DNA of 64,000 nucleotides, taken from Thelephora terrestris (lineage: Eukaryota > Basidiomycota > Agaricomycetes > Thelephorales > Thelephoraceae). This document shows, one piece after another, positions 1,710-42,305 of this stretch (positions are counted from its first letter, which is position 1; every line of letters starts with the position of its first letter). The translations under genes were made by a program, and so were the position numbers. Location: the NCBI GenBank assembly GCA_015956445.1, contig WIUZ02000012.1, positions 248,001 through 312,000 of the forward strand, in the 5' to 3' direction. The notes beneath the pieces were generated by a model that worked only from the letters and a program-made list of their open reading frames with translations, was not told the origin of the DNA and ran no database searches.

Positions 1710-2999
1710 TCTGTTTCTCTGTGTCTTGGTGCTACTCCTACCAGCCTACCTCTGTTACTCTACGATGTTGCGGTGATTCTCCATTGCGACTCTTCGCAAC
1801 CTCTGTTCCTATCCCTCCCCGCTTTGTCTCAAATCTCGCGCTTTACTCTAGTCATCGCGGTCTTCCCCGGCGATTCTCCAGACATCTTTGGGCATCTCTG
1901 AACAGATCTTCTGTTCCGGTGGTCGTACAGAACTCAACACTCAACTGGTACCCACCTCAACTGCTTTTCCACTCTTTCTAGGGTATCCGACTACCCGGAG
2001 TGTTCAGCTAGTTCAGCGGGTGGAGTGAGCATGAGGTGGACCAGCTGTGTCAGGGCCACTCTATCCCAACAACTACCAGTGCACTGAGCCAACTCCGCAG
2101 AGTACTCACTAGTCCGACTAGCTTGTGAGAGAACGATCACGTCTCTATTCTTCCGGTAGGTTGTCTGAGGTCACTACAAGTCAGGTCGAAATCCTAAAGA
2201 GAAACCCAACCTAAACCGTACTTCGTTCGGTTTAACAAGCAAGGGTTTATCCCTACAACAGGATTGATGACTCCACCAGGTGATCGACTGGACGCTCGAG
2301 GTGTTCTATAAGGAAAACGCTGAGGTTCTATAGTTACGAGGCGCAGTTGATGCGCAGAGCGGGAGGGAGAGCAGATGGGGGATGTCTTGGATCAAACAAG
2401 AAACTCTGACTTGTCCTTAACTGCAACTGGGCTGAGAAGGGCAGAGGATTTCCTGAGGTAACAAAACTAAGGTACTACGATACAGCCACAGTTGCTACTT
2501 ATACTAAAGGAGTGGCCATGACGTCAATACCCTAATACACCCTTATCAAGTCCGAACAAAGGGAGATAAGGAGTGTGAGAACGCTAAGTAAGGGAAGCGA
2601 ACAAATATGACGCATGGGAGAATAAAGGACAAAGGGCCTTACTAGCGTGTGAAGGATTGCATAAAAGATAAGGAATGTCCGCATGAAACATAGGGGTAAA
2701 GATAACGCTAGTCCTAAAAGAAAGAGGGGCATGGGGTCTGTCAGCGTGCTGAATTTTATTCCCTTTTTAAACCATTTTCACACCCAACTTTCGCCCACTT
2801 TCCTTACCCATACCCCTTTCTTATCTTACCATTTCCCTTATCACGACTCACACGTCATCAAGGAACACAGACAAGGACACTGATGATATTACCCACGGCG
2901 CGCGACAAAGACACAAGACTATCAAACCGACGGAGTTGAATCCGCCCGGACTCTAGGAACGAGGACTAAGGCGTACAAACCCTAGTCGTCAAGACCTGG

Positions 3000-5696
3000 T
3001 CTGCCAGTACTCCTCACACTGGGGGCAAGGGGTCAAATACCCGGTGGGTACATGCTGAATACATTGTGATCACAGTCAAAAAGTGATCGCAATGTGCCCA
3101 GTGGAGAAATTTTGAATACATTCAAAATGTACCTGGCCATGTGAACCCAATGTGTCCAGTGGGCACATTTTGATTGCGATCACAATGTACCCATCAATGT
3201 GATCTCAATGTGCCCACTGGGGACATTTTGATTGCAATCACAATGTACACATCAATGTGATCTCAATGTGCCAGCTGTGCACATTTTAATTTCTTTCACA
3301 ATGTTCCCATCAATGTGTTCCCAATGTACCCAGCTCATTACATAATAGTTTCTTTCACAATGTTGTCCACAATGTGTCCAGCATGTGGCTGAGCCACTCA
3401 TTCAAAATTCTTTCAAAGATTATCCAGTGATGTGTCCATAATGTTCCCAGGGGGTTCTTTTTGAAGTAATCACAATGTAATCACAATATTGTTCAATTTC
3501 ATCATGAACTTTCAAAGAAATCACTATGTGTATGGCTGTACACATTCTAGACACCTCACTGGATACTTTGTGAAAGAATTTTGAATGAGTGGCTCAGCCA
3601 CATGCTGGACACATTGTGGACAACATTGTGAAAGAAACTATTATGTAATGAGCTGGGTACATTGGGAACACATTGATGGGAACATTGTGAAAGAAATTAA
3701 AATGTGCACAGCTGGCACATTGAGATCACATTGATGTGTACATTGTGATTGCAATCAAAATGTCCCCAGTGGGCACATTGAGATCACATTGATGGGTACA
3801 TTGTGATCGCAATCAAAATGTGCCCACTGGACACATTGGGTTCACATGGCCAGGTACATTTTGAATGTATTCAAAATTTCCCCACTGGGCACATTGCGAT
3901 CACTTTTTGACTGTGATCACAATGTATTCAGCATGTACCCACCGGGTATTTGACCCCTTGCCCCCAGTGTCAGCACTGGCAACCTCCTCCTCCGTCCCCT
4001 CCGAGGCATTCTCGTCGACTTCCTCGTCGACCATCTCGACGACCCGAGCTTCCTCCAGACGATGAGCGACGGCCAACTGAACCTCGGCGCGAAGGCGGTT
4101 CCTCGCTGAATCAACCGTAGTCTGATCCAGAGTCCTCTGGACTGACCAACCCTCCACTCTCTCGGTCAGTTGAGCCACCAGGCGAACGGCCTCTACTGCA
4201 CGCTGGACCGACAAGAGCGTAAGGTCGGTTAAGCCGTTCACGTCGACGGACTCCACCGGAATCAGCTCGCCGTGATCCACGCGACACTGTAGCATTGTTG
4301 CATCGGAATAGGACGGTGGACTCGATGTCTCCACCCTGGCGGACAGCGTCTGGATTACTGGGACGCATGCGGTGCGCTGGACGAAGCGCCCCACGATAAG
4401 GAACCCACCGACGAGCACGGATGGAGCGTTGCCCACGCACCGGAGAGATCGATGGAGGCGGAACCGGAACGGCTACCTCGTTCTCCCCCGCATACTCCAA
4501 CTCCGGAGAACTGCTGACCGGGTTAACCGCCGTCTCCTCGGACGTCTCGCGGACGACCTCCTCCCCGCCATCAGTATGCGCAGGTGTGCGGTACGACCCA
4601 TCGGAAGCTAAAAAGGGATGTCAGTGGACAAGTCAAAATATGTCAACCGACATCCCACCTATGGGAGAAGCCATCCGATCCGGTATCGACTCGTCCTCGG
4701 ACTCGTCGCGAACCGCAGCCACCGAGCGAGTGCGGCAGTGACACAACCGCTCGCTCATCGATTCGACCCGAGCGCCCAACAATGGCAAAGCGTCGTCCAA
4801 CGTATCGACCTAGGAGTGGCATGAGCTCTCTTGGACAAAGACCAGGAGAAGTCGCACCAACCTTGGTGTCAAGCTCATTCAGAGCCCTTCTATGACGGTT
4901 GAGCCGTCGGTCGACCTCGATCAGGTCTCGCTGAATGGTGTCGTCCCATTCCTTCAGGGACTCGACCAACCGGTTGTGTTCTTCGCGCATCGCTAGCATC
5001 TTGCTCTCAAACGTAACGCGGAGCGTATCGTTCATCAGGAGCAGCGTCTTCTTCGTGTCCAAAGCTTCGGAGTACATCCTACGGGCATCATCCTTCGCTT
5101 CCTTCACTTCACGTTTCAGCCGCTCATTCTACAAGCCTGTCAGTGTTATCCCACAAGCGGGATGCACAGACCGACTCACCGCTTTCTGTTCCGTCCTCAA
5201 AAGGAACCAAAGGCGGTGACCAACGGCTGCTGTATAATGCTGTGAACGAGTCGCCCCCGGCCACCTTCCTTCGCCGTTTCCCAGATCGTAGATTCCCATC
5301 TTCAGAAGACCCCACAACGATGACGCCACCGGAGTCTCCCATGGCATACGCAACTCGGTGTTGAACGTGACCCTGCGCATAGACTCTTGTAACTTGTGGT
5401 CAATCAAGTTGTGGTACCACAGCTCGTCGTCTATGGTCAAGTAGTTGGGAGGCTTGGCTATCGTCGCCTCCAGTTGTCGGGCATCCACCTTGGCGGCAAC
5501 CGCGAAGATCTACGATGCAATGTCAGTTGTTGCCAGCAAACGGCGACACGTGACGTCGCACCTCGCGATAACTGGGGTACGCCACGTTGGCGTTCGGAAG
5601 GAAGTAACTCTTGTTCTGCACGGAGCGCGGATCCGCAGACTCGATGGTAGCGGTGCTGTTCTCGGCACGGAAGACTCTATCGGAGATCATGGGCAT
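3000..5696 (-). CDS. Family X element gene, copy in X1 (unknown function)
   Basis: A multi-exon gene on the minus strand, starting at a Met at 5696, with its 3' end interrupted by A2. In order, the protein has a conserved block with the motif DDELW, a charged, probably coiled-coil block (EVKEAKDD, EEHNRLVESL), an acidic/Ser region with SPELEY, and a helical C-terminal segment (QRAVEAVRLVAQLTERV) with an acidic end. The DDELW and ELEY blocks are shared with family Y genes. I do not recognise it as a transposase, Gag or host enzyme. Several short GT-AG introns seem to be present, so the reading is approximate. Confidence 0.45.
3017..3969. mobile_element. Hairpin element A2 (family A) inside X1
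   Basis: A 953-bp foldback with CACTGGGGGCAAGGGG ends, flanked by TCA at 3014-3016 and 3970-3972. X2 carries the same flanking sequence near 11246 with a single TCA and no element, so both the boundaries and the 3-bp duplication are proven within the window. It lies in the last codons of the X1 gene. Interior words are the same as in A1. Confidence 0.95.
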
Positions 5697-5728
5697 AGTG
5701 GATGAGTAGTTGGTGGGATTGTTGATTT

Positions 5729-6679
5729 CACTGGGGGCAAGGGGTCAAATACCCAGTGGGTACATGCTGAACACATTGTGATCACAGTCAACAAGTGATC
5801 ACAATGTGCCCAGTGGGGAAAATTTGAATACATTCAAAATGTGCCTGGCCATGTGAGTCCAATGTGCCCAGTAGGCACATTTTGATTGTGATCACAATGT
5901 ACCCATCAATGTGATCTCAATGTGCCCACTGGGGACATTTTGATTGTGATCACAATTTACACATCAATGTGACCTCAATGTGCCTGCTGTGCACATTTTA
6001 ATTTCTTTCACAATGTTCCCATCAATGTGTTCCCAATGCACCCAGCTCATTACATAATAGTTTCTTTCACAATGTTGTCCACAATGTGTCCAGCATGTGG
6101 CTGAGCCACTCATTCAAAATTCTTTCAAAGATTACCCAGTGATGTGTCCATAATGTCCCCAGGGGGTTCTTTTTGAAGTAATCACAATGTAATCTCAATT
6201 GTTCAATTTCATCATGAACTTTCAAAGAAATCACTATGTGTATGGCTGTACACATTCTAGACACATCACTGGATTCTTTGTGAAAGAAGTTTATATGAGT
6301 GGCTCAGCCACATGCTGGACACATTGTGGACAACATTGTGAAAGAAACTATTATGTAATGAGCTGGGTACATTGGGAACACATTGATGGGAACATTGTAA
6401 AAGAAATTAAAATGTGCACAGCAGGCACATTGAGGTCACATTGATGTGTAAATTGTGATCACAATCAAAATGTCCCCAGTGGGCACATTGAGATCACATT
6501 GATGGGTACATTGTGATCACAATCAAAATGTGCCTACTGGGCACATTGGACTCACATGGCCAGGCACATTTTGAATGTATTCAAATTTTCCCCACTGGGC
6601 ACATTGTGATCACTTGTTGACTGTGATCACAATGTGTTCAGCATGTGCCCACCAGGTATTTGACCCCTTGTCCCCAGTG
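5729..6679. mobile_element. Hairpin element A3 (family A) inside X1
   Basis: A 951-bp foldback with family A ends (CACTGGGGGCAAGGGG to CCCCTTGTCCCCAGTG), flanked by TTT at 5726-5728 and 6680-6682. X2 lacks it at the equivalent place near 13007, where TTT occurs once. It lies just upstream of the X1 gene start, in the promoter side of that gene. The interior is close to A1 and A2, so the three copies look fairly young. Confidence 0.93.
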
Positions 6680-8266
6680 TTTGGGAAGAAGGGAGTTTGA
6701 TGGATCCAACGGCCGGTTCGCGCTACGCTTTATTCGACCATCGACAGCGCTCGCGCCCTATTCGCCATTGGATCGGTCCATCGTTTCACCGGTCTAGACT
6801 CCTCATACATTCGCCTTCGACATTCACGCCCCACTCGGTCTTTTGTTGTCCCGATCGGACGAGCTGACGCGTTGTCCTCTCATTGGTTCGTCCTTGCATG
6901 TGATATTATCCTTTGTCATTCCTTTCCCACACGACGTCATGACCCCTTTCTTATTCTCTCACGAACCCTGACTCATTAGTCATTCCTTTATCATTTCAAT
7001 TCTATACTCCGGGCCGCTTACTGTTCGTGCTTACTCCCGGCCCTTCTTTGCTCCGAGTTATTATTAGATAGGGTTATCTCTGTCCCAGCCGCTCTCCTAT
7101 ATAGGTACCAGTAGAGTAGCTGAGGACTCCCCATCTTTGATATCTCGGGAAGTCCTCTTCTCCTTGCAGCATCGGTGTATTTGCTGTAGGCCACTGAAGA
7201 GCTTATCGAGTAACTCCTTGAACCGTTCGCTCTCCTCTCTCACTCAGTCTTGATCCTTAACCGGTGTTAGAAGCGAGCTCGGACACGACATCGAGTTCCG
7301 CACTGCTCTTTGGGTCAAGTCATCAGTTTGAGGCGCCATCCTTGGGCTCTTGTATCTGCCCTCAGAAGACGATAGGGATTTACCTGATAGAGGCTCGGCA
7401 CTCCTGCTGTGAATTCGGACAACCTACCGGAGAACGCTCGTCCATCGCGTTTTGGACCACATAGACTTTGGGTGGATATAGGGAAGTCGTTCCCCCTTTG
7501 CCCCATTGTTTCTTGTTGGTTGGAGTTGCGACTCACCAACAGCACTGGTACCTGAAGGGCGAAGAGTGGCCCTGACAGGGTCATGAAAGTTCGTACCTGG
7601 GGATCACACCCAAGGGCTAAGTGAGAATCTTCTTGGATGCTTCCTTTGGAGAGGCCAAAGATAGAGACCATGCAGCATCCCTTGTTGTCTGTAGGCAGTA
7701 ACAGCATCACAGACTAGTGGCAACCTTATCGTGCGTCCGAACATGAGGAGCGTGGGCCTAGACTCATGGGACATAAGGGATTACAGATTCGCCGGTGTTT
7801 CACGCTAACGGCTACTTCTACATTTGCTGAGCTAAACAAAAGGAGTCTAAGGCACTCCTTCCGAATAACGGCGATTCCTTCCTCCGGTTAGGAGACTGGG
7901 ATGTGACTGTCCACGTGTGTGATCAGGGTCCAGGGTTGACCGTAATCGTAAAGTCATGAGGGGTCGTAAAAGGGGTTCGTGATGTCGTAAAGGGGTCATC
8001 AGGGTCTTGAGACCTATTTTTAGTGCGCGCGCGTTCTAGGCGTTCCGGAACGAAGTTCTTCCAAGGCCGTTCCGTGGGCTGAGGTGTCAGCTTGATGTAG
8101 TAAGCCAACGATGATAGTACAGGGGTGGAAGTTGATGTGACCCGGACCAATGAGGTTCGTCGAGGTAGGTCACATGAAGGATCACCGATCTAGGCTATAA
8201 GAAGGACGTCTTCTTGGAGCCATCCTTGATCAGCAACACCAGCAACTTCCCCATCATCTCACCAAA

Positions 8267-11200
8267 ATGTCTTTCCCCAACAACCATACCTACAAAGTTG
8301 CCAATGGGATTTCTACCATCTCCCGCATCGACCGCCGTGCCGCCAACCGCAAGACCTACGCCAATGAGGCAGGGGTTCCCTATATCACTGATGACCAGGT
8401 ATGGGGGAGATCTAGTGCTTTTGTGCTTGCGCTAACTTTTCCCTCTAGGTAGAGGTTACGTTCTTTTGGCGTTGATGTCAAGCTAACGGCTTCTAGATCT
8501 TGGAGGTCGTCAAGAAGGTGGACGCCAAACGTCTCAGGGAGACGATCCCACATTTGATGGGGTTGACCTGGGACGATGAGCTCTGGGTCCGGTCCATGAT
8601 CGCCGAGAAGGTGATCTTCCAAATGAGGGGTAGGTTCGGGGAACTGGAGCATCCAATCAAGAAGGAGCTCTGGTACACCCTGCAGAGGGGGATCTATGAT
8701 CAGGACCTGTTGGAGCACAGAGCAACTGTTCCTCGGGCCGTCCGCCATGCCACCGCTTCCACCAGTGTCTTGTGGTCGCTCGTTCGGGAGGGGGAAAGCC
8801 GAGTAGGTTTTCCGTTTGGATATTCGAGTATGACTCTCGACTAACCAAACTGCCTAGGTTGAACGGTTGGAGCGCGAGGTGAAGGAGGCGAAGGCAGACG
8901 TCCTTCATCTGTCGGTGGAGGGTCTTCTGATGAAGGAGACTCTGGCCGCATTCCAGAAGGGGACGAACGAGGCGTTGGAGGTGATGGTCGCTAACCATCA
9001 GGAGTTGGTCGCCGGTCTGAAGGTCAGGGACAACAACATTAAGGGGGCATTGGCTAGGAGGGATGAAAAGGTGCTTTCAGCCTTTGCAGGTTTATGCAAT
9101 GACTGAGAGACTTCTTTTAGACTGAACAACTCGAAGACGTGGTGGCCGTGTTGACTGCGCAGGTCGTGTCCTTGCAGGATAAGACCTGCAACTGCAAGGA
9201 GGGTCCTGTGTTGGTGGGACAAGGTACAGCTGACGTGCCGTTCGAGTTGGAATATGCTAATGAGGTGGTACTTCCATCGCCTAACCCATCGTCCTATGCG
9301 ACACCTCCGATCGAGAACACGGTTTCTGTTCCTACTCCGGCTCCGGCTTCCACGTTGGCCGAGTCCGACAAGGAGAACTGTCGGCGTTGCCCGTTGCAGC
9401 CGATCAGTCAGCTGGTCAAGATCGAGGATGAGGTCATAGAGGTTGACTGGGCCGAAGATGCTCCGAGGGCCATTGAGGTACGTCCGGTGACAACAGGGCA
9501 GCGTTGTAAACGCTCTCGACGCCGTGTTGCTCATCGCATGGCTCCTTCCGCTAACCCGTACCCTCGACCAGTCACTGGGGGCAGGGGTTGGTTTACTGAG
9601 TCAGTAAACTGTGAGTAAATCACAAGTAAATGGAAAAAGAACCCAGCGAAATACTTGTCTGGCAAGCACAAAGCAAATTCACAATTTACTGAGCCAATTT
9701 ACCTGCAATTTACTGGGTCATGTGACCACAGTTTCCCCATTAGGTAAACCTCGGAAAAATTCACAATTTACTGAATAAATTTACCTGCAATTTGCTGAGC
9801 CACTTGCCCAATCAGTATGTTTTTAATTTGCTGAGTGGTTTGATCACGGTTTACTGGACTCAGTAAACTGGAAAAAAACCAAACTGGTTTACTGACGACA
9901 TCCCTGATTGGTCAATTTGAAAATAACCGAAAATTTACCTGGACGTGTCATTGTCAGTAAACTGCAAGTTTTCTTTCAGTAAATTGGAAATACACGTCAG
10001 GTAAACTGGGAAAACACATGACGGTTTGATCATGGTTTACTGGACTCAGTAAATCAGAAAAAAACCTAACCAGTTTACTGACGATGTACCTGATTGGCTA
10101 ATTTGAAAAAAAAACTCGAAAATTTACCAGGACGTGTCTTTATCAGTAAACTGCAAGTTTTCTTTCAGTAAATCGCAAGTACACGTAAAGTAAACCAGAA
10201 AACACATAAACTTTGAATTTACTTACAGTTTACACGTGTTTTCTGGTTTACTTTACGTGTACTTGCGATTTACTGAAAGAAAACTTGCAGTTTACTGATA
10301 AAGACACGTCCTGGTAAATTTTCGAGTTTTTTTTTCAAATTAGCCAATCAGGTACATCGTCAGTAAACTGGTTAGGTTTTTTTCTGATTTACTGAGTCCA
10401 GTAAACCATGATCAAACCGTCATGTGTTTTCCCAGTTTACCTGACGTGTATTTCCAATTTACTGAAAGAAAACTTGCAGTTTACTGACAATGACACGTCC
10501 AGGTAAATTTTCGGTTATTTTCAAATTGACCAATCAGGGATGTCGTCAGTAAACCAGTTTGGTTTTTTTCCAGTTTACTGAGTCCAGTAAACCGTGATCA
10601 AACCACTCAGCAAATTAAAAACATACTGATTGGGCAAGTGGCTCAGCAAATTGCAGGTAAATTTATTCAGTAAATTGTGAATTTTTCCGAGGTTTACCTA
10701 ATGGGGAAACTGTGGTCACATGACCCAGTAAACTGCAAACATACTGAACGCATACTGAACCCATAAATTGCAGGTAAATTGGCTCAGTAAATTGTGAATT
10801 TGCTTTGTGCTTGCCAGACAAGTATTTCGCTGGGTTCTTTTTCCATTTACTTGTGATTTACTCACAGTTTACTGACTCAGTAAACCAACCCCTGCCCCCA
10901 GTGAGTTGAGTCGGATGGTGACCAGTCTGGTCGAGATGAGGGACGTGGATACCGATATCGGGTCAACCGTCCTTACTGTCAGCGTGCTGAATTTTATTCC
11001 CTTTTGAACCATTTTTTCACACCCAACTTTCGCCTACTTTCCTTACCCATACCCCTTTCTTATCTTATCTGTCCCCCTTATCACGAACTCACACGTCATC
11101 AAAGAACACAGACAAAGGCACAGATGATATTACACACGGACGCGCACACGACGAACAGCCAACGGAGTTGAATCCGCACGAACTCTATGGACGAGGACCA

Positions 11201-14200
11201 AGGTGTATAAACCCTAGCCGTCAAGACCTGGTCTGCCAGTACTCCTCAGCACTGGCAACCTCCTCCTCCGTCCCCTCCGAGGCACTCTCGACGACTTCCT
11301 CGTCGACCATCTTGACGACCCGAGCTTCCTCCAGACGATGAGCTACGGCCAGCTGAACCTCGGCGCGCAGGCGGTTCCTCGCTGAATCGACCATAGTCTG
11401 ATCCAGAGTCCTCTGGACTGACCAACCCTCCACTCTCTCGGTCAGTTGAGCCACCAGGCGAACGGCCTCTACTGCACGCTGGACCGACAAGAGCGTAAGG
11501 TCGGTTAAGCCGTTCACGTCGACGGACTCCACCGGAATCAGCTCGCCGTGATCCACGCGACACTGTAGCATTGTTGCATCGGAATAAGACGGTGGATTCA
11601 ATGTCTCCACCCTGGCGGACGGCGTTGGGATTACTGGGACGCATGCGGTGCGCTGGACGAAGTGCCCCACGATAAGGAACCCAACGACGAGCACGGGTAG
11701 AACGTTGCCCACGCACCGGCGAGATTGACGGAGGCGGAACCGGAACAGCCACCTTGTTCTCCCCCACGTACTCCAACTCGGGAGAACTGCTAGCCGGATT
11801 CACGGCCGTCTCCTCAGACGTCTCGTGGACGACCTCTTCCCCGCCATCAGTATGCGCCGGTGTACGGTATGAACCGTTGGAGGCTAAAAAGGGATGTCAG
11901 TGGACAAGTCAAATATGTCAACCGACATCCCACCTATTGGGGAAGCCATCCGGTCCGGAATCGACTCGTCCTCGGACTCGTCGCGAACCACAGCCACCGA
12001 ACGAGTGCAGCAATGGCACAACCGCTCGCTCATCGATTCGACCCGAGCGCCCAACAACGGCAAGGCGTCGTCCAACGTGTCAACCTAGAAGTGGTGTGAG
12101 CTCTCTTGGACAAAGACCAGGAGAAGTCACACCGACCTTGGTGTCGAGCTCATTCAGAGCCCTTCAATGACAGTTGAGCCGTCGGTCGACCTCGATTAGG
12201 TCTCGCTGAATGGTGTCGTCCCGTTCCTTCAATGACTCAACCAATCGGTTGTGTTCTTCGCGCATCGCCAGCATCTCGCTCTCAAACGTCACGCGGAGCG
12301 TATCGTTCATCAGGAGCAGCGTCTTCTTCGTGTCCAAAGCTTCGGAGTACATCCTACGGGCATCATCCTTCGCTTCCTTCACTTCACGCTTCAGCCGCTC
12401 ATTCTACAAGCCTGTCAGTGTTATCCCACAAGCGGGATGCACAGACCAACTCACCGCTTTCTGTTCTGTCCTCAAAAGGAACCAAAGGCGGTGACCAACG
12501 GCTGCTGTGTAATGTTGCGAACGAGTCGCCCCCGGCCACCTTTCTTCGCCGTTTCCCAGGTCGTAGATTCCCATCTTCAGAAGACCCCACAACGATGACG
12601 CCACCGGAGTCTCCCATGGCATACGCAACTCGGTGTCAAACGTGACCCCGCGCATAGACTCCTGTAACTTGTGGTCGATCAAGTTGTGGTACCACAACTC
12701 GTCATCCATGGTCAAGTAGTGGGGAGGCTTGGCGATCGTCGCCTCCAGTTGTCGAGCATCCACCTTGTCGGCAGCCGCGAAGATCTACAAATGCGATGTC
12801 AGTGATTGCCAGCAAACAGCGACACGTGACGTCGCACCTCGCGATAACTGGGGTACGCCACATTGGCATTCGGTAGGAAGTAACCCTTGTTCTGCACGGA
12901 ACACGGGTCGGCGGACTCAATAGTAGCGGTGCTGTTCTCCGCACGGAAGACACGGTCGGAGATCATGGGCATAATGGATGAGTAGTTGGTTGGTAGGATG
13001 GTTGGTTTGAGAAGAAGGGAGTTTGATGGATCCAACGGCCGGTTCGCACTACGCTTTATCCAACCATCGAGAGCGCTCGCGCCCTAATTGCCATTGGATC
13101 GGTCCATTGTTTCACCGGCCCAGACTCCCCATACATTCGCTTCAACCATTTAAGCCCCACTCGGTCTTTTGTTGTCCCGATCGGACGAGCTGACGCGTCG
13201 TCCTCTTATTGGTCAGTCTTCACATGTGATATTGTTCTTTATCATTCCTTTCCCACACGACGTCATGACCCCTTTCTTATTCTCTCACGAACCCTGACCC
13301 ATTAGTCATTCCTTTATCATTTCTATTCTCTGTTTCGGGCCGCTTACTGTTCCAGCTTACTCTCGGCCCTTCCTTGCTCCGAGTTATTATTAGATAGGAT
13401 TATCTCTGTCCCAGCCGCTCTCCTATATAGGTACCAGTAGAGTAGCTGAGGACTCCCCATCTTTGATATCTCGGGAAGTCCTCTTCTCCTTGCAGCATCG
13501 GTGTATTTGCTGTAGGCCACTGAAGAGCTTATCGAGTAACTCTCTGAACATGTTCGCTCTCCTCTCTCTCTCAGCCTTGCGTTAAGAATCGGCGAACGCG
13601 CTTACGAAAAGGAGTTCCTCGCCGCTCTCTTAATCAAGCACCAGTTTGAGGCGCCATCCTCGGGCTCTTATCTCTGCCCTCAGAAGACGATAGGGATTGA
13701 TCTGATAGAGGCTCGGCACTCCTGCTGTGAATTCGGACAACCTACCGGAGAACGCTCGTCCATCGCGTTTTGGACCACGTAGACTTTGGGTGGATATAGG
13801 GAAGTCGTTCCCCCTTTGCCCCATTGTTTCTTGTTGGTTGGAGTTGCGACTCACCAACAGCACTGGTACCTGAAGGGCGAAGAGTGGCCCTGACACTTAC
13901 CGACAGGTCGAGCCGGAGATCCAGCTTCACCACCAGCTTTGACTCGCACGACAGGATCCCACCCAGGGGTCCGACGAGGGAGACGGAGGGTCGCTCGTCG
14001 ACTACATCGATAGTGCTGCCGAGCAGTCACCCGGTGATGGAGATGTGGGACCAGGTGTTCCGCAGTTCAGTGACATCTGGGAGGCTGATCGGACCGCTCG
14101 AAGGCATCTCTTCTTAACGGCTTGAACTAGTCGTTCAGCTGAGCGCCGAAGATGGTGACGCCATGTTCGGGGAGGTCCTTGCAAGGAGGGGCCAGCACTA

Positions 14201-14261: not shown

Positions 14262-14610
14262 TGGGACATTGATAGCACCGTATATAGCCATGTTGTTTCG
14301 ATTCGCTGGGAATTGTATGTGCGTGTGTGTGTTTTGAATGATTGGTGCAAAGGATAAGGAGTGTGAAGCATTCAAACATAAGAAGTGGTAAGAAGAGTTC
14401 GAAGAAAGAGCGTGTTATAAAAAGTTTAAAAATACCATGTTCCTGACAAGCTGGTGTTGTTCTACATGAGCCTGGATGTTCACCTGATACGGTCGCAGGC
14501 GTACGGGCTGGAGACGATCTTGCGCTATCAGGATAGAGTCTGTCGAGAATGGACCTTTCGCCTCAAGACCAATCCATACTCAATCGCAACGGTCAATGAT
14601 GATCTAATGA

Positions 14611-15790: not shown

Positions 15791-17286
15791 GAAGATGGAG
15801 AAGCCATGCTCGGGTCGTTGATGGTCGGTCGTGGTTGTTCCTTGAGTCTGGAGTGGGAAACAGGTCGAGAGGATGGAGAGGAGGTTGTTGATTACTAAAG
15901 GGTTCTGTCAGGGCCACTCTACCCCAACAACTACCAATGCACTGAGCCGACTCCACAGAGGACTCACTAGTCCAACTAGTTGTGAGAGGATGGTCACACC
16001 TCTATTCTTCCGGTAGGTTGTCCAAGGTCACTGCAAGTCGGGTTGAAATCCTAAAGGGAAACCCAACCTAAACCGTGCTTCGCTCGGTTTATCCAACAAG
16101 GGTTTATCCCTACAGCAGGATTGATGACTCCACCAGGTGATCGACTGGACGCTTGAGGTATTCTATATGGTGAACGCTGGGGTTCTATAGTTACAAGGTG
16201 CAGTTGACGCACAGAGCGGGAGGGAGAGCAGATGGTGGTGTCTTGTGTTCAAACAGAAAACTCTGACTTGGCCTTAACTGCAACTGGGCTGAAAATGGCA
16301 GAGGATTTCCTGAGGTAACAAAACTAAGGTACTACGATACAGCCACAGTTGCTACTTATACTACTGGAGTGGCCATGATGTCAGTAACCCTAATATACCC
16401 TTATCAAGATAGAACAAAGAGAGATAAGGAGTGTGTGAATGCAAAGTAAGGGAAGCGAACAAGTATGCCATGTGGGAAGATAAAGGAAAGAGGGCCTTAC
16501 TAGTGTGTGAAGGACGGCATAAGGGATAACAATAGTCCGCATGAAACATAGGGGTAAAGATAACACTAGTCCTAAAAGAAATAGGGGCATGGGGTTATGA
16601 GAGTTCGTTCCTGGGGATCACACCCAAGGGTCAGGTGGAAATGTCTCATTGCTTCATGCAATTTTCGAGCGGCTCCGAGATTAGGAACCATGCATCATCC
16701 CTTGTTGTTGGTAGGCGGTAACAGCATCACGGACTAGTGGCAACCTCAACGTACGTCCGAACATGAGGAGGTCGGGCCTAGACTCATGGGACATGAGGGA
16801 TTACATGCTTTGCCAGTGTTTCACGCTAACAGCTACTTCCACATTCGCTGAGCTAACCAGAAGGATCCTAAGGCGATTCTTCCGAGTAGCAGTGATTCCT
16901 TCCTCCGGTTAGGAGACTGTGATGTGACTGTCCACATGTGTGATCAGGGTCCAGGGTTGGTCATTATCGTGATGTCATCAATGAGTCATCAGGGTCGTAA
17001 AGGGGTCGTAAAGGGGTCGTCAGGGTCATGAAACCTATTTTTAGTGCGCACGTGTTCTAGGTGTTCCGGAACAAAGTTCTTCCAAGGCAGTCCTGTGGGC
17101 CGAGGTGTCAGCTTGATGTAGTAAGCCAACGATGATGGTACAGTGGCAGAAGTTGATGTGACCCGGACCAATGAGGTTCATCGAGGTAGGTCACGTGAAG
17201 GATCACCGATCTAGGCTATAATAAGGACATTTTCTTGGAGCCATCCTTGATCAGCAACACCAGCAACTTCCCCACATCTTACCAAC

Positions 17287-19515
17287 ATGTCTTTCCCCAA
17301 CAACTATACCTACAAAGTCGCCCAAGGGATCTCCACCATCTCTTGCATCGACTGTTGTGCTGCCGCTCGCAAAGACCTACGCCTGTGAGGCGGGAGTTCC
17401 ATACCGTACCGATGAAGAGGTTGGCTTCATCTCTCGGGGTTTAACCCAAGAAATTGACCGGCCACTTCTAGATCTTAAAGGTTGTCAAGAAGGTGGACGC
17501 CGAACGTCTCAGGGAGATGATTCCTCATCTGATGGGGTTAACCTGGGATGATGAGCTTTGGGTCCGCTCTATGATTGCCAAGAAGGTGATCCACCAAATG
17601 CAAGGACGTTTCAGAGAATTGGAGCATCCCATCAAGAAGGAGCTGTGGTACACCTTGGTGAGAGGCGTCTAGGATCAGGACCTGTTGGAGCACAGAGCAA
17701 CCATTCCTCGGGCCGTTCGCCACGCCACTACGTCTACCACCCTGCTCTGGTTACTGGTGCGAGAAGGAGATAGCAAGGTGGGTTGCTAGGTTGTTCCGAG
17801 TATGACTCTCATTAACCATAGCTTCCGTAGGTCGAGTGTTTGGAGAGGGAGGTGAAGGAGGCGAAGGCAGATGTCCTTTGATTATCCTCCGAAAGTCTCT
17901 TGATGAAGGAGACCATGGCCGAGTTCCAGAGGAAGACAAATGAAGCATTGGAGGCAATGGTAGCTAACACTGGGGGCAGGGGCACCTGGAATTGGTGATT
18001 ACATCTTGACTACATGGTGAATTCATGTGCACTTTTCAATAATTGTAATTGCCGATTCCAGGTTGATTACATTTCAAATGTTACCTTGACATGTAATCCA
18101 ACCAATGTCCACCAATTTCATTTAAAATGTTCTCAACAAATGTTTCTGGGATGCTTTTGACCTGTCGGCAAAAATGATACTGCAATGTAATCAGCATGTT
18201 CTTCAATCGTCCGAGATGTAATCTAAATGTGCTCAAAAACATGAGATGTTTTCACAATGTACCCACTGGGCACATTCAGGAAACGTTGCTTGGGAACATC
18301 TTGAGGAAATTCCAAATGGAGTTGGTGGCAACAGTTGGATTACATGTCAAGGTAACATTTGAAATGTAATCAACCTGGAATCGGCGATTACAATTATTGA
18401 AAAGTGCACATGAATTCACCATGTAATCAAGATGTAATCACCAGTTCCAGGTGCCCCTGCCCCCAGTGTAACCATCAGGACTTGGTTGCTGGCTTGGGCA
18501 TTCGGGACGAGAACATGACAGGGGCCTTTGATAGGCAGGACAACCGCTTGGACCGGCATTCCAAGGAGATCGACGAGGAGAGCACTCGGGTGAGTGATCC
18601 GAAGTACACTCTCTTTTGTGAGAGGGACTAACGTTCACTAGGCTGACGAACTCAAGAATATGGTGTCCATGTTGACCGCGCAGGTCAAATCCCTTCAAGA
18701 CAAGATCTGTCGCTGTGACAAGTCGCCACGATTGGTGGGCCAGGGTTCGGCCGATGTTCCCTTTGAGTTGGAGTATGCCAATGAGGTGGTACTCCTGTCA
18801 CCTAATCCTTCGTCCTACGCCACGCCTCCGGTAGAGAACGAGGCTCCTATCCCTACTCCGGCTCTGGCTTCCACTCTGGCTGATTCCGACAAGGAGAACT
18901 GTGAGCGCTGCCCAATGTGGCCGATCAGTCAGTTGGTGCCGAACGAGGAGATGGTCGTGGACAGGGCTGAAGATGCTCCGAGGGTTGCCGAGGTACGTCC
19001 AGTGACTAAGGGACAGTGTTGTAAATGCTCCCGATGCCGTATTGTGCATCGCATGGCACCCTCGTTTTACCCTTACCTGCATCCAGTTGAGTTGGATGGT
19101 GACCAGTCTGGTCAAGATGAGGGAAGACGGTTCCAGTACCGGGTCAACCGTCCCAACTGACAGGTTGAGTCAGAGGTCCAGCGTAGGCACCTCACTCAAC
19201 TTGCAGTACAGGATCCCACCCAGGCCTCTGATGAGGGAGATGGAAGGTCTCTCTTCAACTACATCGACAGCGCTGCCGAGCAGTCACCCGGTGATGGAGA
19301 TGTGGAACCAAGTGTTCCAAAGTTCAGTAACGTCTGGGTGGCTGGTGGGTCCCTTCGAAGGGCTCTCTTCGTATCGACTTGAACTAGTCGTTCAGTTGAG
19401 TGCCAAAGATGGGGACGCCATGTTCAGAGAGATGCTTGCTAGGAGAGGCCAGTGGTTCAACCGGGATGGCCAGCTTGAGCATTGGGTGCCTGCCGTAGAT
19501 AGGATCGACTTTTGA
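17287..19515 (+). CDS. Family Y element gene, copy in Y2 (unknown function)
   Basis: Starts at MSFPNNYTYK and ends at VDRIDF followed by a stop at 19513-19515. It has the same block order as the Y1 copy: N-terminal block, DDELW block, coiled-coil-like block, a Cys-containing linker (CRCDKS), ELEY, a Pro/Ser-rich region, ENCERC, a Cys/Arg patch (CCKCSRCR) and an acidic C-terminal exon with SPGDGD. C1 lies inside it. The Cys pairs (CxC, CxxC) could bind metal, but this is only suggestive. Function unknown; probably decayed. Confidence 0.45.
17968..18468. mobile_element. Hairpin element C1 (CACTG-ended, family C) inside the Y2 gene
   Basis: 501 bp, ends CACTGGGGGCAGGGG and inverse, flanked by TAA at 17965-17967 and 18469-18471. 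Y1 shows the unoccupied site near 8992 (GCTAACC). Interior words differ from A and B (ACCTGGAAT, GATTACAT, ATGTAATC). The arms are inverted copies for roughly 200 bp. Confidence 0.93.
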
Positions 19516-20234
19516 TAGGACATTTATAAGCATCGTAGTATAGCCTTGTGGTTCCAGTTTGGCTTGAATGTATTGTGTGTCGTGTGTTTGAATGATGGAA
19601 CGAAGGAAAGGGAGTGTGAAGCATGCAAACAATAGGAAATGGTAAGAAGAGTTTGCAGAAAGAGTGTGTTATAAAAAGTTTAAAAATACCATGTTCCTGA
19701 CAGGTTCCTGGCACACATCAGGTCAACTAGGAGTTGCCTCCTAGTTCATTGTATAACCATGTGTTTCGTGTCCATTTCGTCCGGAATTGATTGTGCGCTT
19801 TGTTTTCTTGATGATTCAATAAGATGAAAGTGTGATAAGGAAGGTGATGGGTAATGGGTAAGATAACATAAGAAAAAGAAAGAATGTGAGTTTGGAAAAG
19901 TTGAAGAAAATCATGATGAAAAATCCATGGTCGTGACAAAGAACTTCATCAACCAATTCATCACTGCCCACCACAACCGTATCCCCAACACTGTCTTCTA
20001 CAGTGGCATAGCCTGCAGCTGGGTCATTGATACCGCTGCCGCCTACTTCATCCAGGGAGACCACAAGTCCGGCAAAGCCTTCTACCAATGGAACTGGTAC
20101 ATCTTCACGCTCACCAACAACAAGGAACATATCAACACTTGGATCAAGACCCTCACAGTGATCAAGTTCAACGGTGGTGTCACAAATGCGTGACATTTTG
20201 AGAAAGATCACACAGGTCATTCAAGAAATTCATG

Positions 20235-21072
20235 TCATTTGCAATAATAGTACAAAGCCAAGTAAAAAGGTTGAACCAAAACAAAGGGATCTACTTCATA
20301 AGAACAGCCCTGATGATTGGGACAGCGATGAGCAAAGTGAAAAGGGTTGTACACACTCTGAGGGTAATACGAATACCGACCCAAAGTTGGATTCACCCAA
20401 CACTCCTGACATCCCAAGACATCATGGAATACCCCCTCATGCATCTCCGTCATCACTTGATCTAGCCCTTCTCTCACTAAGTCGAACCCATACTCCTCCT
20501 GCAACTTCGCCACCTCCAACTTCAGCCTCATGCGCACTTGATGAATCTTGGCTGATGGATGAAAACACTGTCCAGAATGCATCATCGGACTTTTTTGAGT
20601 CTTCTTCAAAGTCCTCTCCACCATCAGAGGGGCTGGAACAGGACTCCAAGGAGGGGATAGAGGGAGAGGAACTCCCTAATCCTGGTGGAGTTGGAGGGAC
20701 GACTGGGGACTGATCCTTGGGAAGACACAGTCTACAGATGCAGTGCTCCTGGACAGCCACCTGCAAGGGTTTCCAATGTTCATCAACAAAATGCACAAAC
20801 TCCTCATTGAAACTTCCAAACATAACGTACATGAGATCCATCTGCTTCTCTAACCTAATGATTCTCACCTCCCTATTGCGCTCCATAGTATCAAGGAGGG
20901 GAATGAGGTATCCCACCTGGTCCCAGACACAGAAAGGGGCCTCATGCTGACAAAGGAACTCTTGAGTGATTTTGTTGTCTTGAGCAATGGCAGCAGGGCT
21001 GTCATAAAGGTAGTTGGCGACATCGTAGGGGGTGGTGGTGTCAAAGGGAGTAGCATTGACGTTGAGAGACAT
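20235..21072 (-). CDS. Family W gene alpha, copy in W1 (unknown, Cys-rich C-terminus)
   Basis: The start is MSLNVNATPFD at 21072. Parts in order: an N-terminal block rich in helix formers (HEAPFCVWDQVGYLIPLL, RLEKQMDLMYVMF), an acidic Ser-rich middle (SSSPSIPSLESCSSPSDGG) and a C-terminal Cys-rich block (DVLGCQECWVNP, YNPFHFAHRCPNHQGC, EVDPF). The Cys spacing could hold a metal ion. The middle and C-terminal parts are in different frames, joined by a short intron or broken. No known domain was identified. It is paired with W2 alpha. Confidence 0.45.
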
Positions 21073-21989
21073 AGTGAGCATAGGTTATTTATAAGAGGAG
21101 AGGGTTGTTGTGTGATTGTGGGAGGGGAAAAGAGACGATGGGGGGAAAAAGTCCAAGAAACCCCACAAGCTATATACATTTGAAACAATGGGACACCAAA
21201 AGGGTTAAAACAATAAACCATTATCCATTGATGTTCCAAAAAGGACAAATGAACCCTCACCCCCAATTGCGATCCCATCAATCATGAGAAATCCCCATCA
21301 TTCTTCTATTGCTACCATGAAACCCGAGAAATCCCCATTGTACTTCTATTGACTCATCCCCTGTTGTTCCCCTATTTGTATTTACCATTAGTCGTCCTAA
21401 GTTCCCTTCCCCTGACTCATCCACCCTACCCTAAACTACACACAGACCCTGTTGACTCATGTTTGACTCATTGTAGGATTACTAAGCATGTAAAGGATTG
21501 GGTATATAAGGAGGAGCAATTGCACTTTCTTCCCCCATTCTCAATCTCTTCTGTACTCCCCTACCAACTGCTCAATATACAAAGTAAGCTGAGGATTCTC
21601 CTCATGTCTTACTCTGACTAAATCATTAAAAGCAGGAATCTTCCTGCTAGTGTATGTTTAGTGCTCCAAACCCCTTTCCCTCTACTACCGACATCCCCTG
21701 ACGCTCGTGGGTCTATCTGGAAGTACAAACTTATCAGAAGCCTACAAGTTAATAGATCCAACAGTCTCTTAACTCGCTACCCCTACTATCGCCCCTTCAC
21801 TGCTCTTGACACCAGCTTCACCACTCCCCCTTTCCTTCTCGGAGATCATCAATTCTTGTGGTCCTCAACGATCACTGGTTGTCAGGGTTGAAGGCCTGCT
21901 TACTGTTTATGGGGCGCTAGAGGATTAGCAGGATAAGAAGTATCTGGTCAAGGTTTGGTAAAGGGGGTTCCGGGGGTAGAGGTTAGAGG

Positions 21990-22527
21990 TGGCGGGATAT
22001 CAAGAGTGAGTGGGAACTTGAATTGATTGAGAAGGATAGATGGGGGAGTTGTAGTCTTGGCAGAATTCAGCGAGATATTGAATGAAGGGTTCGAAGTCTT
22101 GATCGCTAAGTCATTCAAAGCTGTTGAGGTATTCTATAACCGCAAAAGGGAGATCAGTTGGGATATCCCACCAGAGAACGGTAATAGCGGGACAATTAGT
22201 GTGAACGTTAGTAGTTAAGTGAATTTGTGGAGTGGGGAAGTAAAAGGATGGGCTGATACTAAAATAGACGGTGGCTAGCACACTGTTGGTGAAGTCGGAC
22301 TTCCACAAAAATTGGTGATTGGCACCAAGCAAGAATGGCAGGGAGATGACTCCGGCGTCGAGAGCAGCGAAAGGCCGATAATAGGGATGATGAGTTAATA
22401 GACCACTAGTCCTATTAACTTGGAGACTCCTGATGAGCTTATACTCCCAAATAGATCTCCGAGCATCGGGGATGACAGGTCGTTGGATGGGACTATTAGA
22501 AGGGAAAGGGTTTGGTGCACTGAACAT
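21990..22527 (-). CDS. Family W gene beta, copy in W2 (unknown function)
   Basis: Reads MFSAPNPFPSNSP at the start, then IWEYKLIRSLQVNR, YYRPFAALDAG, FLWKSDFTNS, YFSISPSFYF, VLWWDIPTD and DQDFEPFIQ, about 170-180 residues. It is colinear with the W1 copy but read from the opposite strand to alpha in the same element, so W elements carry two divergent genes about 540 bp apart. No domain recognised. Perhaps slightly damaged near its 3' end. Confidence 0.45.
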
Positions 22528-23070
22528 ACACTTGCAGGAGAATTCCTGCTTGAATGAGTCAGATAAAGAGTAAGACGTGAGGAGGATTCCTCAGCTTACT
22601 TTGTTTATTGAGCAGTTGGTAGGAGAGTACAGAAGAGATTGAGAATGGGAAAAGAAAGGAGCGAACACTCTTCCTTATATACCCAATTCTCTACATGCCT
22701 AGTAATCATACAATGAGTCAAACACAAGTCAGCATGGTTTGTATGTAGTTTAGGGCAGGAGGAATGAGTCAGAGGAGGGGACTTAGGACGACTGATGGTA
22801 AATACAATTAAGGGAACAATAGGGGAGGAGTCAATAGGAGTACAATGGGGATTTCTCATGATTGATAGAATCGAGATTGGGGTTGAGGGTTCATTTGTCC
22901 TTTTTGGGATGGCAATGGATGATGGTAGATTGTCTTACCCCTTTTGGTGTCCCATTGTTTTAAGTGTATATAACTTGTGGGGTTTCTTGGTCTTTTTCTC
23001 CCATTGTCTCTTTTCCCTTCTCCCAATCATACCACAACTCTTTCCCTCTTATAAACAACCTTTGCTCACT

Positions 23071-24652
23071 ATGTCTCTCAACGTCAACACTACTCCTTTT
23101 GACGCCACCACCCCTTACAATGTCAACACCTCTGACGTCGTCAATCACCTCTACGACACCCCCACTGCCATTGCTTGTGACAATGAAGTCGCTCAAGACT
23201 TCCTTCGCCAGCATGAGGCTCCTTTCCAAGTCTGGGATCAAGCCGGGCATTTGATCCCCCTTCTTGACACCATGGAGCGTGACAGGGAGGAGAGGATCAT
23301 TAGGTTGGAGAAGCGGATGGACCTCATGTATGTCATGTTTGAGAGCTTTGATGAAGACTTCCCACATTTTTGTGACGAACATTGGAAACCCTTTCAGGTG
23401 GCTGTCCAAAAGCACTGCGTCTCCACACACTGGGGGCAAGGGGGTACTTACCCAGTGGGTACATTGTGAGTTCATTGTTGGTTTTGAAACCATTCACCCA
23501 GTTGTTACCCACCAGGTACTTTTTGGGGACTTTTTGAAAGATACTCATCAATTTGCCTGCATTTTACCCACTGGGTACATGGTGGGTACTTTGTAAAATT
23601 ACCCACTCAGGAACCCAGTGGGCATTTTTTGAGTGAAACCCCTGGGTTCTTTCACAATTCACTTTCCAATGTGCCCATCAAACACCTGAGTCACTCATTG
23701 AGAGTTCTTTCATAAAGTACCCACCAATCTGATTACAATGTACTCAACCGCATACACAATGGGTTCTTTGAGAGTTTGTGGTAAAATGAGCCACATTGTT
23801 AGTTCTTTGTGAGTTCTTTCATAAATACCCACTGATCTGATCAAAACATACCCAGTGGGTTTTTTTCAAAGAACTCTCAATGAGTGACTCAAGTTTGTGA
23901 TGGGCACATTGGAAAGTAAATTGTGAAAGAACCCAGGGGTCTCACTCAAAGAGTACCCACTGGGTTCCTGAGTGGGTACTTTTACAACATGCCCACCATG
24001 TACCCAGTGGGTAAAATCCAGGCGAATTTATGGGTATCTTTCAAAAAGTACCAAGAAAGTACCTGGTGGGTAATGACTGGTCAAATGGTTTCAAAACCCA
24101 CAATGACCTCACAATGTGCCCACTGGGTAAGTACCCCCTTGCTCCCAGTGACAGACCAGCCCCCAGTCATCCCTTCAACTCCACCAGGATCAGGGCATTC
24201 CTCTCCCTCAATCCCCTCCTTGGAGTCCTGCTCTGGTGCTTCAGATGGTGGAGAGAACCATGAGGAAGAGTCGCAAGAGTCCAATGACTTGTTCTGGACA
24301 ACGGTGTTGCCTGTCGAACAAGTCTTGTCAAGTGCAGATGCGATTGAAGTTGGAGGCGGCGAGTCTTCAGGACAAGTATGGATTTGATCTAGTGAGTGAA
24401 GGGCTAGATCAAGTGAGGAGGGAGATGTATGATGGGTTGGAACATGACGTGTTGGGGTGTTGGGACTGCTGGGTGGACCCGACGTCCAGAGAGTATTCTT
24501 ACTGTCCGAAAAGTGTGTACAACCCTTTTCATTTCTCCCATTATTGTCCTCTGGGTCAATCTTGTGCCTGTGAGGTAGATCCTTTCCTCCTTGTTTACTC
24601 TGTTTACTTTGTCTTGTATTACTACTGCGAATGGTACAGATTTCTCAAATAA
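23071..24652 (+). CDS. Family W gene alpha, copy in W2 (interrupted by D1)
   Basis: Starts MSLNVNTTPFD at 23071, 15 nt after a TATAAA box. Blocks: HEAPFQVWDQAGHLIPLL, RLEKRMDLMYVMF, DEHWKPFQVAVQ, then D1, then the acidic Ser-rich region and the Cys-rich end (GCWDCWVDP, YNPFHFSHYCPLGQSCAC). The conservation between W1 and W2 of both the N-terminal block and the CxxC / CxC pattern argues that this was a real protein. Function unknown; this copy is broken. Confidence 0.45.
23428..24150. mobile_element. Hairpin element D1 (CACTG-ended, family D) inside W2 alpha
   Basis: 723 bp, starts CACTGGGGGCAAGGGGG and ends with the inverse CTTGCTCCCAGTG, flanked by ACA at 23425-23427 and 24151-24153. Interior words are TACCCA(C/G)TGGGTA, GTGGGTACTTT and TTCTTTCA; it shares the pattern of A but not its sequence. 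Its insertion separates the N-terminal and middle blocks of W2 alpha. Confidence 0.92.
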
Positions 24653-25189
24653 CCTGTGTGATTTTACTCAACATGTCACGCGTTCGTGACAGGGGTTCCT
24701 CTCCCTCTATCCCCTCCTTGGAATCCTGCTCCAGTCCTTCAGATGGTGAAGAGGACTTTGAAGAAGAGCCAGAAGAGTCCGATTACTCGTTCTGGACAGC
24801 GGTGTCGCCCATCGAACAAGGCTCACCAAGTTCATATGCAGTCGAAGCCGGAAGTCGCGAATCTTCAGGACAAGTATGGGTTCAATCTAGTGAGTGAAGG
24901 GCTAGAGGAAGTGAAGAGAGAGATGAATGAGGGGTTGCATTATGATGTACTAGGGTGTTAGGACTGCTGGGTAGATCCGACGTTTGGACAGTATTCTTAC
25001 TGTCCTCAAAGTGTGTACAACCCTTTCCATTTCTCCCATCGTTGCTCTCTTGATCAGCCGTGTGCTTGTGAAGTAGATCCGTTCCTCCTTGTTTAGTTCA
25101 CTTGATTTGTTTTGTAACACTACTGCGAATGATACAAATTTCTTGAATAACTTGTGTGATTTTTCTCAATATGTCACGGGTTTGTGACA
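24193..25189 (+). repeat. Tandem duplication of the W2 3' end (about 2 x 499 bp)
   Basis: 24193-24691 and 24692-25189 are direct copies that both start in the acidic region (TTCCTCTCCCTC) and both end with the W terminal motif GTGACA. They differ by many substitutions (by eye about 80% identical), so this is not a fresh slip duplication; a second, diverged W tail has been joined to the first, perhaps by unequal recombination between two W copies. Confidence 0.7.
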
Positions 25190-25215
25190 CTGGCGATGTC
25201 CTAGTCACCGTCTAT

Positions 25216-25686
25216 CACTGGGGGCAAGGGCACCTGGAATTGGTGATTACATCTTGATTACATGGTGAGTCCATGTGCACTCTTCAATAATTGTAATTGC
25301 CAACTCCAGGTTGATTACATTTCAAATGTTACCTTGACATGTAATCCAGCCAATATCCACCAATTCCATTTGAAATGTTCTCAACAAATGTTTCTGAGAT
25401 GTTTTTGACCTTTCGGCAAAAATGATACTGCAATGGAGTCAACATGTTCTTCAATCGTCTGAGATGTTTTCACAATGTGCCCAGTGGGCACATTCAGGAA
25501 ACATTGCTTGGGAACATTTTGAGGAAATTTCAAATGGAGTTGGTGACATCAGTTGGATTACATGTCAAGGTAACATTTGAAATGTAGTCAACCTGAAATC
25601 AGCAGTTACAATTATTGAAAAGTGCACATGAGCTCACCATGTAATCAAGATGTAATCACTGGTTCCAGGTGCCCTTGCCCCCAGTG
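25216..25686. mobile_element. Hairpin element C2 (family C) inside W1
   Basis: 471 bp, CACTGGGGGCAAGGGCACC to CTTGCCCCCAGTG, flanked by TAT at 25213-25215 and 25687-25689. It is almost identical to C4 at 41103-41573 (only a handful of differences by eye), so the two descend from a recently active source. Confidence 0.93.
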
Positions 25687-42302: not shown

Positions 42303-42305
42303 TCT

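Follow-up and report, generated by a model that had tools for sequence, protein, structure and literature searches.

Long terminal repeats (LTRs) are usually regarded as regulatory DNA, and solo LTRs as gene-free scars. HBZ of HTLV-1 is an antisense, spliced retroviral regulatory gene tied to the 3' LTR, and it is by this description that it is likened to the gene considered here; its coding sequence lies mostly outside the LTR. In the MMTV-type betaretroviruses, as far as the account cited goes, sag lies mostly in the U3 of an LTR that is long conserved owing to sag, and the gene persists in solo LTRs (PMC4667437). The plant elements Grande, RIRE2 and Retand and the Botrytis element Boty (brtn) carry an extra gene antisense to gag-pol, for which a nuclear regulatory role has been proposed; in the descriptions drawn on, it is placed between pol and the 3' LTR, is single in each element and is lost with solo-LTR formation (PMC7264820, PMC11963269).

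The elements of Thelephora terrestris described below share with Ty3/gypsy chromoviruses the gag-pol order with protease, reverse transcriptase, RNase H, integrase and chromodomain, the TG...CA LTRs and the 5-bp duplications. They differ in that their LTRs (families X and Y) are 2.9-3.3 kb long and hold a spliced antisense gene. Like sag, as outlined above, that gene is an accessory gene within the LTR that persists in solo LTRs, but sag is sense and specifies a superantigen, whereas the X/Y gene is antisense, multi-exon and fungal and specifies a coiled-coil protein (homology of the two proteins is judged by the absence of Pfam matches alone). It is antisense to gag-pol, as are its plant and Botrytis counterparts, but located inside the LTR.

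Gene-bearing units in the window

The window, a 64-kb stretch of the T. terrestris genome, was scanned for TGTCAG and CTGACA ends that pair up between equal 5-mers (the chance of equal 5-mers in the window is 0.00115; a few chance pairs elsewhere are also listed). The scan recovers Y1, X1, X2 and Y2 with the four perfect duplications listed in an earlier note on this DNA, whose observation holds; the duplications of W1 and W2 are near-perfect. The units and their genes are:

2048..14448, plus strand (that of the antisense gene; Y gag-pol is opposite): Y1, a Y-family solo LTR bounded by AGCTG (2043-2047 and 14449-14453)
8267..14258, plus strand: Y1 LTR gene, located by tblastn (exons 8267-8401, 8491-8805, 8858-9073 and 9121-9495, last part 13941-14258)
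2739..7577, minus strand: X1, a solo LTR of the X family inside Y1, with GGGTC on both sides; holds two foldback elements
3969..5696, minus strand: X1 LTR gene, from P0073 matches running from 5696 down to 3969
10977..13895, minus strand: X2, a solo LTR of the X family inside Y1, with CTTAC on both sides; 2,919 bp, without nested DNA
11224..12972, minus strand: X2 LTR gene, modelled exons 1-5 and a last exon with two frames; exon 3 contains a single in-frame TGA
15906..19702, plus strand: Y2, a Y-family solo LTR bounded by GGTTC; one foldback element within
17287..19512, plus strand: Y2 LTR gene, in decay, with 2 stops over 450 aligned codons and one exon 1 insertion that breaks the frame
20178..26070, minus strand: W1, a presumptive LTR split by nested W2, with the imperfect duplication GGTGG/GGTGA
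20440..21072, minus strand: W1 gene, whose first reading frame matches P0084 at 54% identity; another frame overlaps it and continues downstream
21880..25189, plus strand: W2, inside W1 in opposite orientation, with the imperfect duplication CTGGT/CTGGC
23071..24927, plus strand: pieces of the W2 gene, split by the foldback element 23428-24150

Y1 is split by X1, X2 and foldback elements, and its gene, broken up by X2 and a foldback element, is decayed (1 stop in 456 aligned codons). Without nested DNA, Y measures ~3.3 kb and X ~2.9 kb. Tabulating the flanking 5-mers of copies throughout the genome, as had been proposed, gives exact 5-bp duplications at 13 of the 17 Y loci fetched with both ends (one further locus matches at 4 of 5 positions and three mismatch) and, for X, at seven of the nine loci with both ends in range, from 16 fetched.

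The W units are more weakly delimited than Y1, X1, X2 and Y2, each duplication having one mismatch. W2 carries, besides its foldback element, a tandem duplication at its 3' end (24198-24691 and 24696-25189). No W pair clearly brackets a pol among the W matches listed, and the model of the W protein is poor (mean pLDDT 51.2). That the W units are LTRs we only infer.

Two sister families of chromodomain elements

The earlier note saw no mobility enzyme in the units and offered two accounts of them: solo LTRs that happen to hold genes, or terminal-inverted-repeat (TIR) elements moved in trans. The enzyme is indeed absent from the copies in the window; elsewhere in the genome, X and Y pairs bracket gag-pol. 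In one full Y element (C11) the paired LTRs, 3,299 bp each, are without a single difference and AGGAT lies on both sides. The 6,017-bp interior holds a gag frame of 681 residues and a pol frame of 1,322 residues, both opposite in strand to the LTR gene, and pol matches the Pfam families RVT_1, RNase H, Integrase_H2C2, rve, Chromo and SH3_Tf2-1. The junction of this interior with the Y LTR is found in eight exact copies, all eight of Y type, and the partner LTR starts within the predicted 401-bp piece at five of six further loci (8.4 kb off at the sixth).

The pol matches comprise eight of Y type (98-100%) and three at 61-62% identity, which represent the X sister family. Beside one of these three an X LTR starts straight after a purine tract, and, among the matches listed, two of them (C23 being the third) are bracketed by X ends at a spacing of 8.8 kb. 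C12 is a full X element with GTTTT on both sides; C11 and C12 are the two elements in which duplications around a full-length copy were looked at. C14 and C45, also considered as full-length X elements, were rejected, their X LTRs being split by nested elements. At the 5' LTR junction of Y, TGG is absent, a shared interior motif beginning ~12 bases inside, and no tRNA genes were found among the 21 sources scanned.

X and Y are the LTRs of two sister chromodomain Ty3/gypsy families in T. terrestris. The first account is thus borne out for both, with pairs that flank gag-pol, PBS-side and PPT-side junctions and 5-bp duplications, and the units are no new transposon class: what had been put forward as an undescribed system consists, for X and Y, of Ty3/gypsy LTRs with an unusual cargo gene. 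The TIR account, with mobilization by a Ginger/Tdd-like or LTR integrase, would fit the ends and 5-bp duplications taken alone, as well as the lack of an enzyme in most copies. It is contradicted for X and Y by the identical direct copies that flank gag-pol, with junctions on both sides, and by terminal complementarity that is restricted to the first bases, as at the usual short LTR end. Where a transposase, own or related, would be expected between inverted ends, the full X and Y elements have gag-pol between direct LTRs. For these two families we reject this account, the least credible of all those weighed here.

About 411 Y ends and 171 X ends were counted, with 0 in controls. Set against eight and three pol matches, these numbers mean that most copies are solo LTRs or fragments; the best explanation is that nearly all X and Y copies, those of the window included, are solo LTRs left by LTR-LTR recombination. 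The refutation that the earlier note had envisaged, copies that always flank a shared interior, is correct in making the units LTRs and fails in that most of them are solo. In the public annotation the LTR genes are entered as hundreds of hypothetical proteins (the source gene models may be computed).

A spliced gene antisense to gag-pol

All X and Y LTR members examined carry, or once carried, a multi-exon gene antisense to gag-pol. Codon position 3 is the most divergent in all 17 Y gene copies. The median dN/dS is 0.15 for Y (153 pairs) and 0.07 for X (45 pairs), the pairs not being independent, and the share of parsimony changes that falls on position 3 is 0.63 in exons vs 0.32 in introns for Y, and 0.78 vs 0.24 for X. 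Splice sites are conserved. The X and Y proteins are 31% identical (E 2e-34), while the DNA of X2 and the Y LTR shares a single 35-bp match; the complete gene was compared between the paired LTRs of one element. Exons 1-5 are open in nine of ten X copies. Stops occur in six of 17 Y copies and frame-breaking indels within the gene in three of 17, which accords with what dead solo LTRs should show (most Y copies also have an insertion at the final base of their stop codon, which is outside that count). Changes private to single copies fall on positions 1/2/3 as 30/26/117 in X and 70/60/145 in Y.

Judged by these substitution patterns, the LTR gene is under strong purifying selection, common to both families. 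Codon-level conservation confirms the intron-containing genes as real, and together with dN/dS and the exon-intron difference at position 3 it disposes of annotation noise. The view that repeated LTR families with spliced genes of their own are unusual still holds, and the tests for selection reinforce it: accessory genes are not usually located in an LTR, and this one is spliced, lies on the opposite strand and has, by the same signs, been kept in working order through evolution.

In both families, two frames remain open through the last exon. This, with the coding-like evolution of Y intron 4 (the last intron), makes the case for dual coding, since retention of the intron would yield two C-termini. 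The initial Y gene model, of 465 aa, ends in the retained frame, and the source models mostly use the spliced one. Where the two frames overlap, changes are spread flatly over the codon positions, a pattern that in Y cannot be told from that of introns (p 0.15) or flank (p 0.41) and in X differs only weakly from them (p 0.032 and 0.013); an exon-like pattern was not seen in the retained intron of X (p 0.0004 vs exons, 0.077 vs introns). Occasional retention of the last intron, with two alternative C-termini, is what these reading frames suggest.

The protein is predicted to form a long coiled coil (residues 133-278), outside which the model is poor (mean pLDDT 47.8). Searches at E up to 1 and E up to 0.01 found no Pfam family, and Transposase_28 (PF04195), as in Retand, is not among the matches. 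Solved structures, searched by profile, yielded no convincing match (best E 0.13), and the viral contigs searched held no relatives of either protein. Our best guess, from position, coiled coil and analogy, is a regulatory accessory protein that outlives solo-LTR formation in the manner of MMTV sag, but antisense.

What the LTR gene may do

The reading that we prefer, and to which (with the solo-LTR origin of the copies) we assign a probability of about 0.85, is that X and Y are chromovirus-type LTRs, mostly solo, with a selected antisense spliced gene whose product is a putative coiled-coil regulator. The gene would be transcribed from a conserved LTR segment upstream of it, and its product would serve the element as a regulatory accessory protein. 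Given its location in the LTR, the gene is present twice in a full element and once in a solo LTR, so that the protein could in principle come in trans from hundreds of elements that are themselves dead. A bolder proposal, offered tentatively and at well below even odds, is that an essential trans-acting regulator moved into the LTR, in antisense and with a last exon given two frames by intron retention; solo-LTR formation, ordinarily the end of an element's genes, would then multiply the gene, and the pool of several hundred copies built up by this genomic clean-up might control or license the few full elements.

Captured genes are known in LTR elements, at least in the account consulted (PMC7264820), and the LTR gene might be such a passenger, derived from a host gene that entered an ancestral LTR in a single capture and has since been of no use to the element. 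It has no Pfam domain and its effect on the element is only putative; but a passenger should decay, yet median dN/dS is 0.07-0.15, and the gene has been kept in both families despite pols that are only 61-62% identical and the loss of similarity in the surrounding LTR DNA. We think this unlikely. Slightly less probable still is selection on an antisense RNA rather than a protein, for example through dsRNA formation or the damping of sense transcription: the element's own transcript runs opposite to the gene, and other elements are described as being under antisense control (PMC7264820, as far as drawn on), but a protein is needed to explain constraint at the level of codons, the conservation of splice sites and a protein identity of 31% where the DNA shows no similarity. 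An RNA role in addition to the protein is possible. That the host has taken over the genes of solo LTRs and now maintains them would account for private X changes that still favour position 3 and for exons 1-5 remaining open in X; however, many diverged active lineages, recently inserted, would leave the same pattern, and the Y copies, with their more even private changes and their stops, are more decayed. We rate such a takeover a little lower again.

On the preferred reading, of a selected gene within mostly solo chromovirus-type LTRs, hundreds of solo LTRs in this genome bear a selected, spliced gene, which permits LTRs to be aligned over long times and provides what looks like a natural example of reading frames that overlap through a dual-use intron. 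Were the protein to act in trans, solo LTRs would play an active part in the biology of these elements, aiding or restraining the full copies, and the gene counts of such genomes would be inflated by them.

LTRs with and without an interior

Thelephora terrestris is a basidiomycete (Thelephorales) with a 40.6 Mb assembly in 60 contigs. Scanning the window bore out, as the earlier note gave them, the four perfect units Y1 (2048-14448), X1 (2739-7577), X2 (10977-13895) and Y2 (15906-19702); Y1 contains X1, X2 and foldback elements as nested DNA. X, taken in minus orientation, and Y, taken in plus, share the start TGTCAGGGCCACTCT. A third family is made up of W1 (20178-26070) and W2 (21880-25189), whose duplications have one mismatch. 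Seven of the foldback elements, which are long inverted repeats, end in CACTGGGG...CCCAGTG and sit between exact 3-bp duplications, as CACTA-type elements do; one has 502-base arms of 100% complementarity.

Foldback elements and other repeats of the window
724-1709, foldback element
3017-3969, foldback element
5729-6679, foldback element
9573-10903, foldback element
17968-18468, foldback element
23428-24150, foldback element
25216-25686, foldback element
26928-28950, inverted repeat, nearly perfect, whose arms of 966 bases enclose a further foldback element and whose end is made of degenerate TTAGG-like repeats
39084-39177 and 40750-43247, an X end, truncated, and another W-like remnant, which has gene pieces of its own and holds a nested foldback element

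The first 700 bases of Y have at least 42 matches in the genome (best 40 of 462 candidates scored). The earlier note had proposed that such units could be solo LTRs of large elements, and a Y pair around gag-pol was indeed found, on contig C11: two copies in the same orientation, 9,316 bases apart, each of 3,299 bases, without a single difference and with AGGAT outside both ends. The 6,017 bases between them hold overlapping gag (681 residues) and pol (1,322 residues) in different frames, both on the strand opposite to the gene in the LTR; pol matches retroviral-type protease, reverse transcriptase, RNase H, integrase and chromodomain. The pattern joining the interior's end to the Y start has eight exact genome matches, all of them Y-type, and five more at 2 mismatches (control, 0). 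At five of six further loci examined the partner LTR starts inside the predicted piece; at the sixth, on C4, it lies 8.4 kb off. One of these loci, on C23, has Y LTRs starting at 1032754, 1042064 and 1051374 (~9.3 kb spacing): full elements in tandem, with three LTRs and two interiors.

X is the LTR of a sister family. A pol search returned at least eight matches at 98-100% identity and at least three at 61-62% (best 35 of 162 candidates scored), with a TGA in one pol of each group. On C12, the 361 bases 3' of a 61-62% pol pass a purine tract and then enter an X LTR, read from the 3' end of the X gene. X starts bracket this pol (1328738 and 1337501) and a second one on C5 (1119263 and 1128062), that is, two of the three 61-62% matches, the third being on C23; GTTTT flanks the C12 element at both sides. 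At the junctions fetched for X and Y (L061, L009/L010), no tRNA-type primer site lies directly at the LTR; in both families a CTGGTA close to the end of the LTR is complementary to a TACCAG ~14 bases within the element.

As established for LTR elements in general, the solo LTRs here would have arisen through LTR-LTR recombination. Genome-wide there are 171 X starts (up to 1 mismatch) and 411 Y starts (up to 2), with none in either control, against the at least three and at least eight pol matches; most ends must thus be solo LTRs or fragments. Exact 5-bp duplications, the mark of a solo LTR in the strict sense, flank 13 of the 17 Y copies and 7 of the 9 X copies that were fetched with both ends. 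W-type genes are diverged, with at least 189 matches (best 150 of 382 candidates scored); no W pair around pol was found among the matches listed, and W is therefore an LTR by resemblance only.

A spliced gene antisense to gag-pol

In the C11 LTR the Y gene has five exons (1376 to 3116) and encodes 479 residues when the last intron is removed. Both forms occur among the source annotation's models, P0009 with this intron removed and P0001 with it kept. Intron 1 (1508-1607) is ~99 bases long in most copies and ~50 in others, and source models sometimes place a two-residue microexon in it. The X gene has five exons and a last exon (spliced form, P0073), including one extra intron absent from Y. 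The two proteins are 31% identical (E 2e-34), and inspection of the models puts introns 1-3 at matching places, one alignment supporting the third and another putting a gap there; the DNA of X2 and the Y LTR shares a single 35-base match and nothing more.

The gene is under selection in both families. Divergence at position 3 exceeds that at positions 1 and 2 in all 17 Y copies compared with the C11 copy. Median dN/dS is 0.15 for Y (range 0.01-0.23; exons 1-4, 18 copies, 153 pairs) and 0.07 for X (0.02-0.21; 10 copies, 45 pairs), the pairs being non-independent through shared ancestry. Parsimony changes on the tree at positions 1/2/3 number 284/175/794 in Y exons against 91/109/93 in introns 1-3, and 57/48/366 in X exons against 27/29/18 in introns. 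Aligned codons are stop-free in 11 of 17 Y copies, several of them partial, and three of the 17 have a frame-breaking indel within the gene; X exons 1-5 are open in nine of ten copies, the exception being X2 of the window.

The segment upstream of the gene (Y LTR 200-1375, X LTR 200-880, gene orientation) evolves more slowly than the gene's silent sites in both families, and in Y also more slowly than introns (0.62-0.68 changes per site against 1.65-1.95), which suggests constraint, or else unusually fast silent sites.

A Pfam search with the LTR proteins returned no family at its cut-off. The predicted model has a long helix of good confidence (residues 133-278) and little else; a Cys-x-Cys motif lies C-terminal to the coiled coil, and the retained Y C-terminus opens with a basic stretch. 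Of 72 matches to the Y protein, 71 are labelled T. terrestris and one is short and weak. The X/Y alignment has 13 matches (six T. terrestris, five JGI, two from another source) and the W protein nine (three T. terrestris, six JGI); relatives thus exist beyond this assembly.

Two readings of the last exon

The last Y intron reads like an exon. It begins with GT and ends with AG in all 17 copies and measures 94 bases in 16 of them. Unlike introns 1-3, it shows divergence of 11.8/11.0/29.6% at positions 1/2/3 when read in the frame coming from upstream, with one stop in 459 codons; its parsimony pattern does not differ from that of exons (p 0.25) but does from those of introns 1-3 (p 4.7e-6) and of the flank (p 8.6e-6). 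Of 14 Y copies, 12 keep the spliced frame open downstream of the intron, 11 the retained frame and none the third; for X the counts are nine, seven and none of ten. Silent divergence is lower in the overlap of the two frames than in other exons (Y, 0.21 vs 0.57; X, 0.11 vs 0.44), and past the retained stop the Y spliced frame is codon-like again (p 0.00011 vs introns). Two results count against dual coding: the Y overlap alone has a flat position pattern, indistinguishable from noncoding DNA, and the retained X intron (64 bases in all ten copies) has a pattern that is not exon-like.

Precedents and a possible role

No report of antisense spliced genes inside LTRs was found in the literature searched (subscription papers being mostly outside its reach), nor anything comparable in the accessible part of a fungal LTR survey. 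Antisense ORFs of plant elements and Boty lie between pol and the 3' LTR (PMC7264820, PMC11963269). The sag gene of MMTV lies in U3 of the LTR; solo LTRs retain it, and because of it LTRs stay alignable (PMC4667437). The element type, LTR-borne accessory genes and antisense accessory genes are thus already known; what would be new is that they occur together, in a gene that is spliced and has an end open in two frames.

Our overall explanation, to which we give a probability of about 0.85, is that X and Y are LTRs of two sister retrotransposon families and carry an antisense gene kept by selection. The analysis shows that the units are LTRs, that the gene is antisense and under selection, and how its reading frames are arranged. 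The gene's own promoter would lie within the conserved segment upstream of it, and solo LTRs may be able to express it. The product would be nuclear and regulatory; that it regulates, with either sign, is the tentative part of this explanation, and we put it at somewhat less than an even chance.
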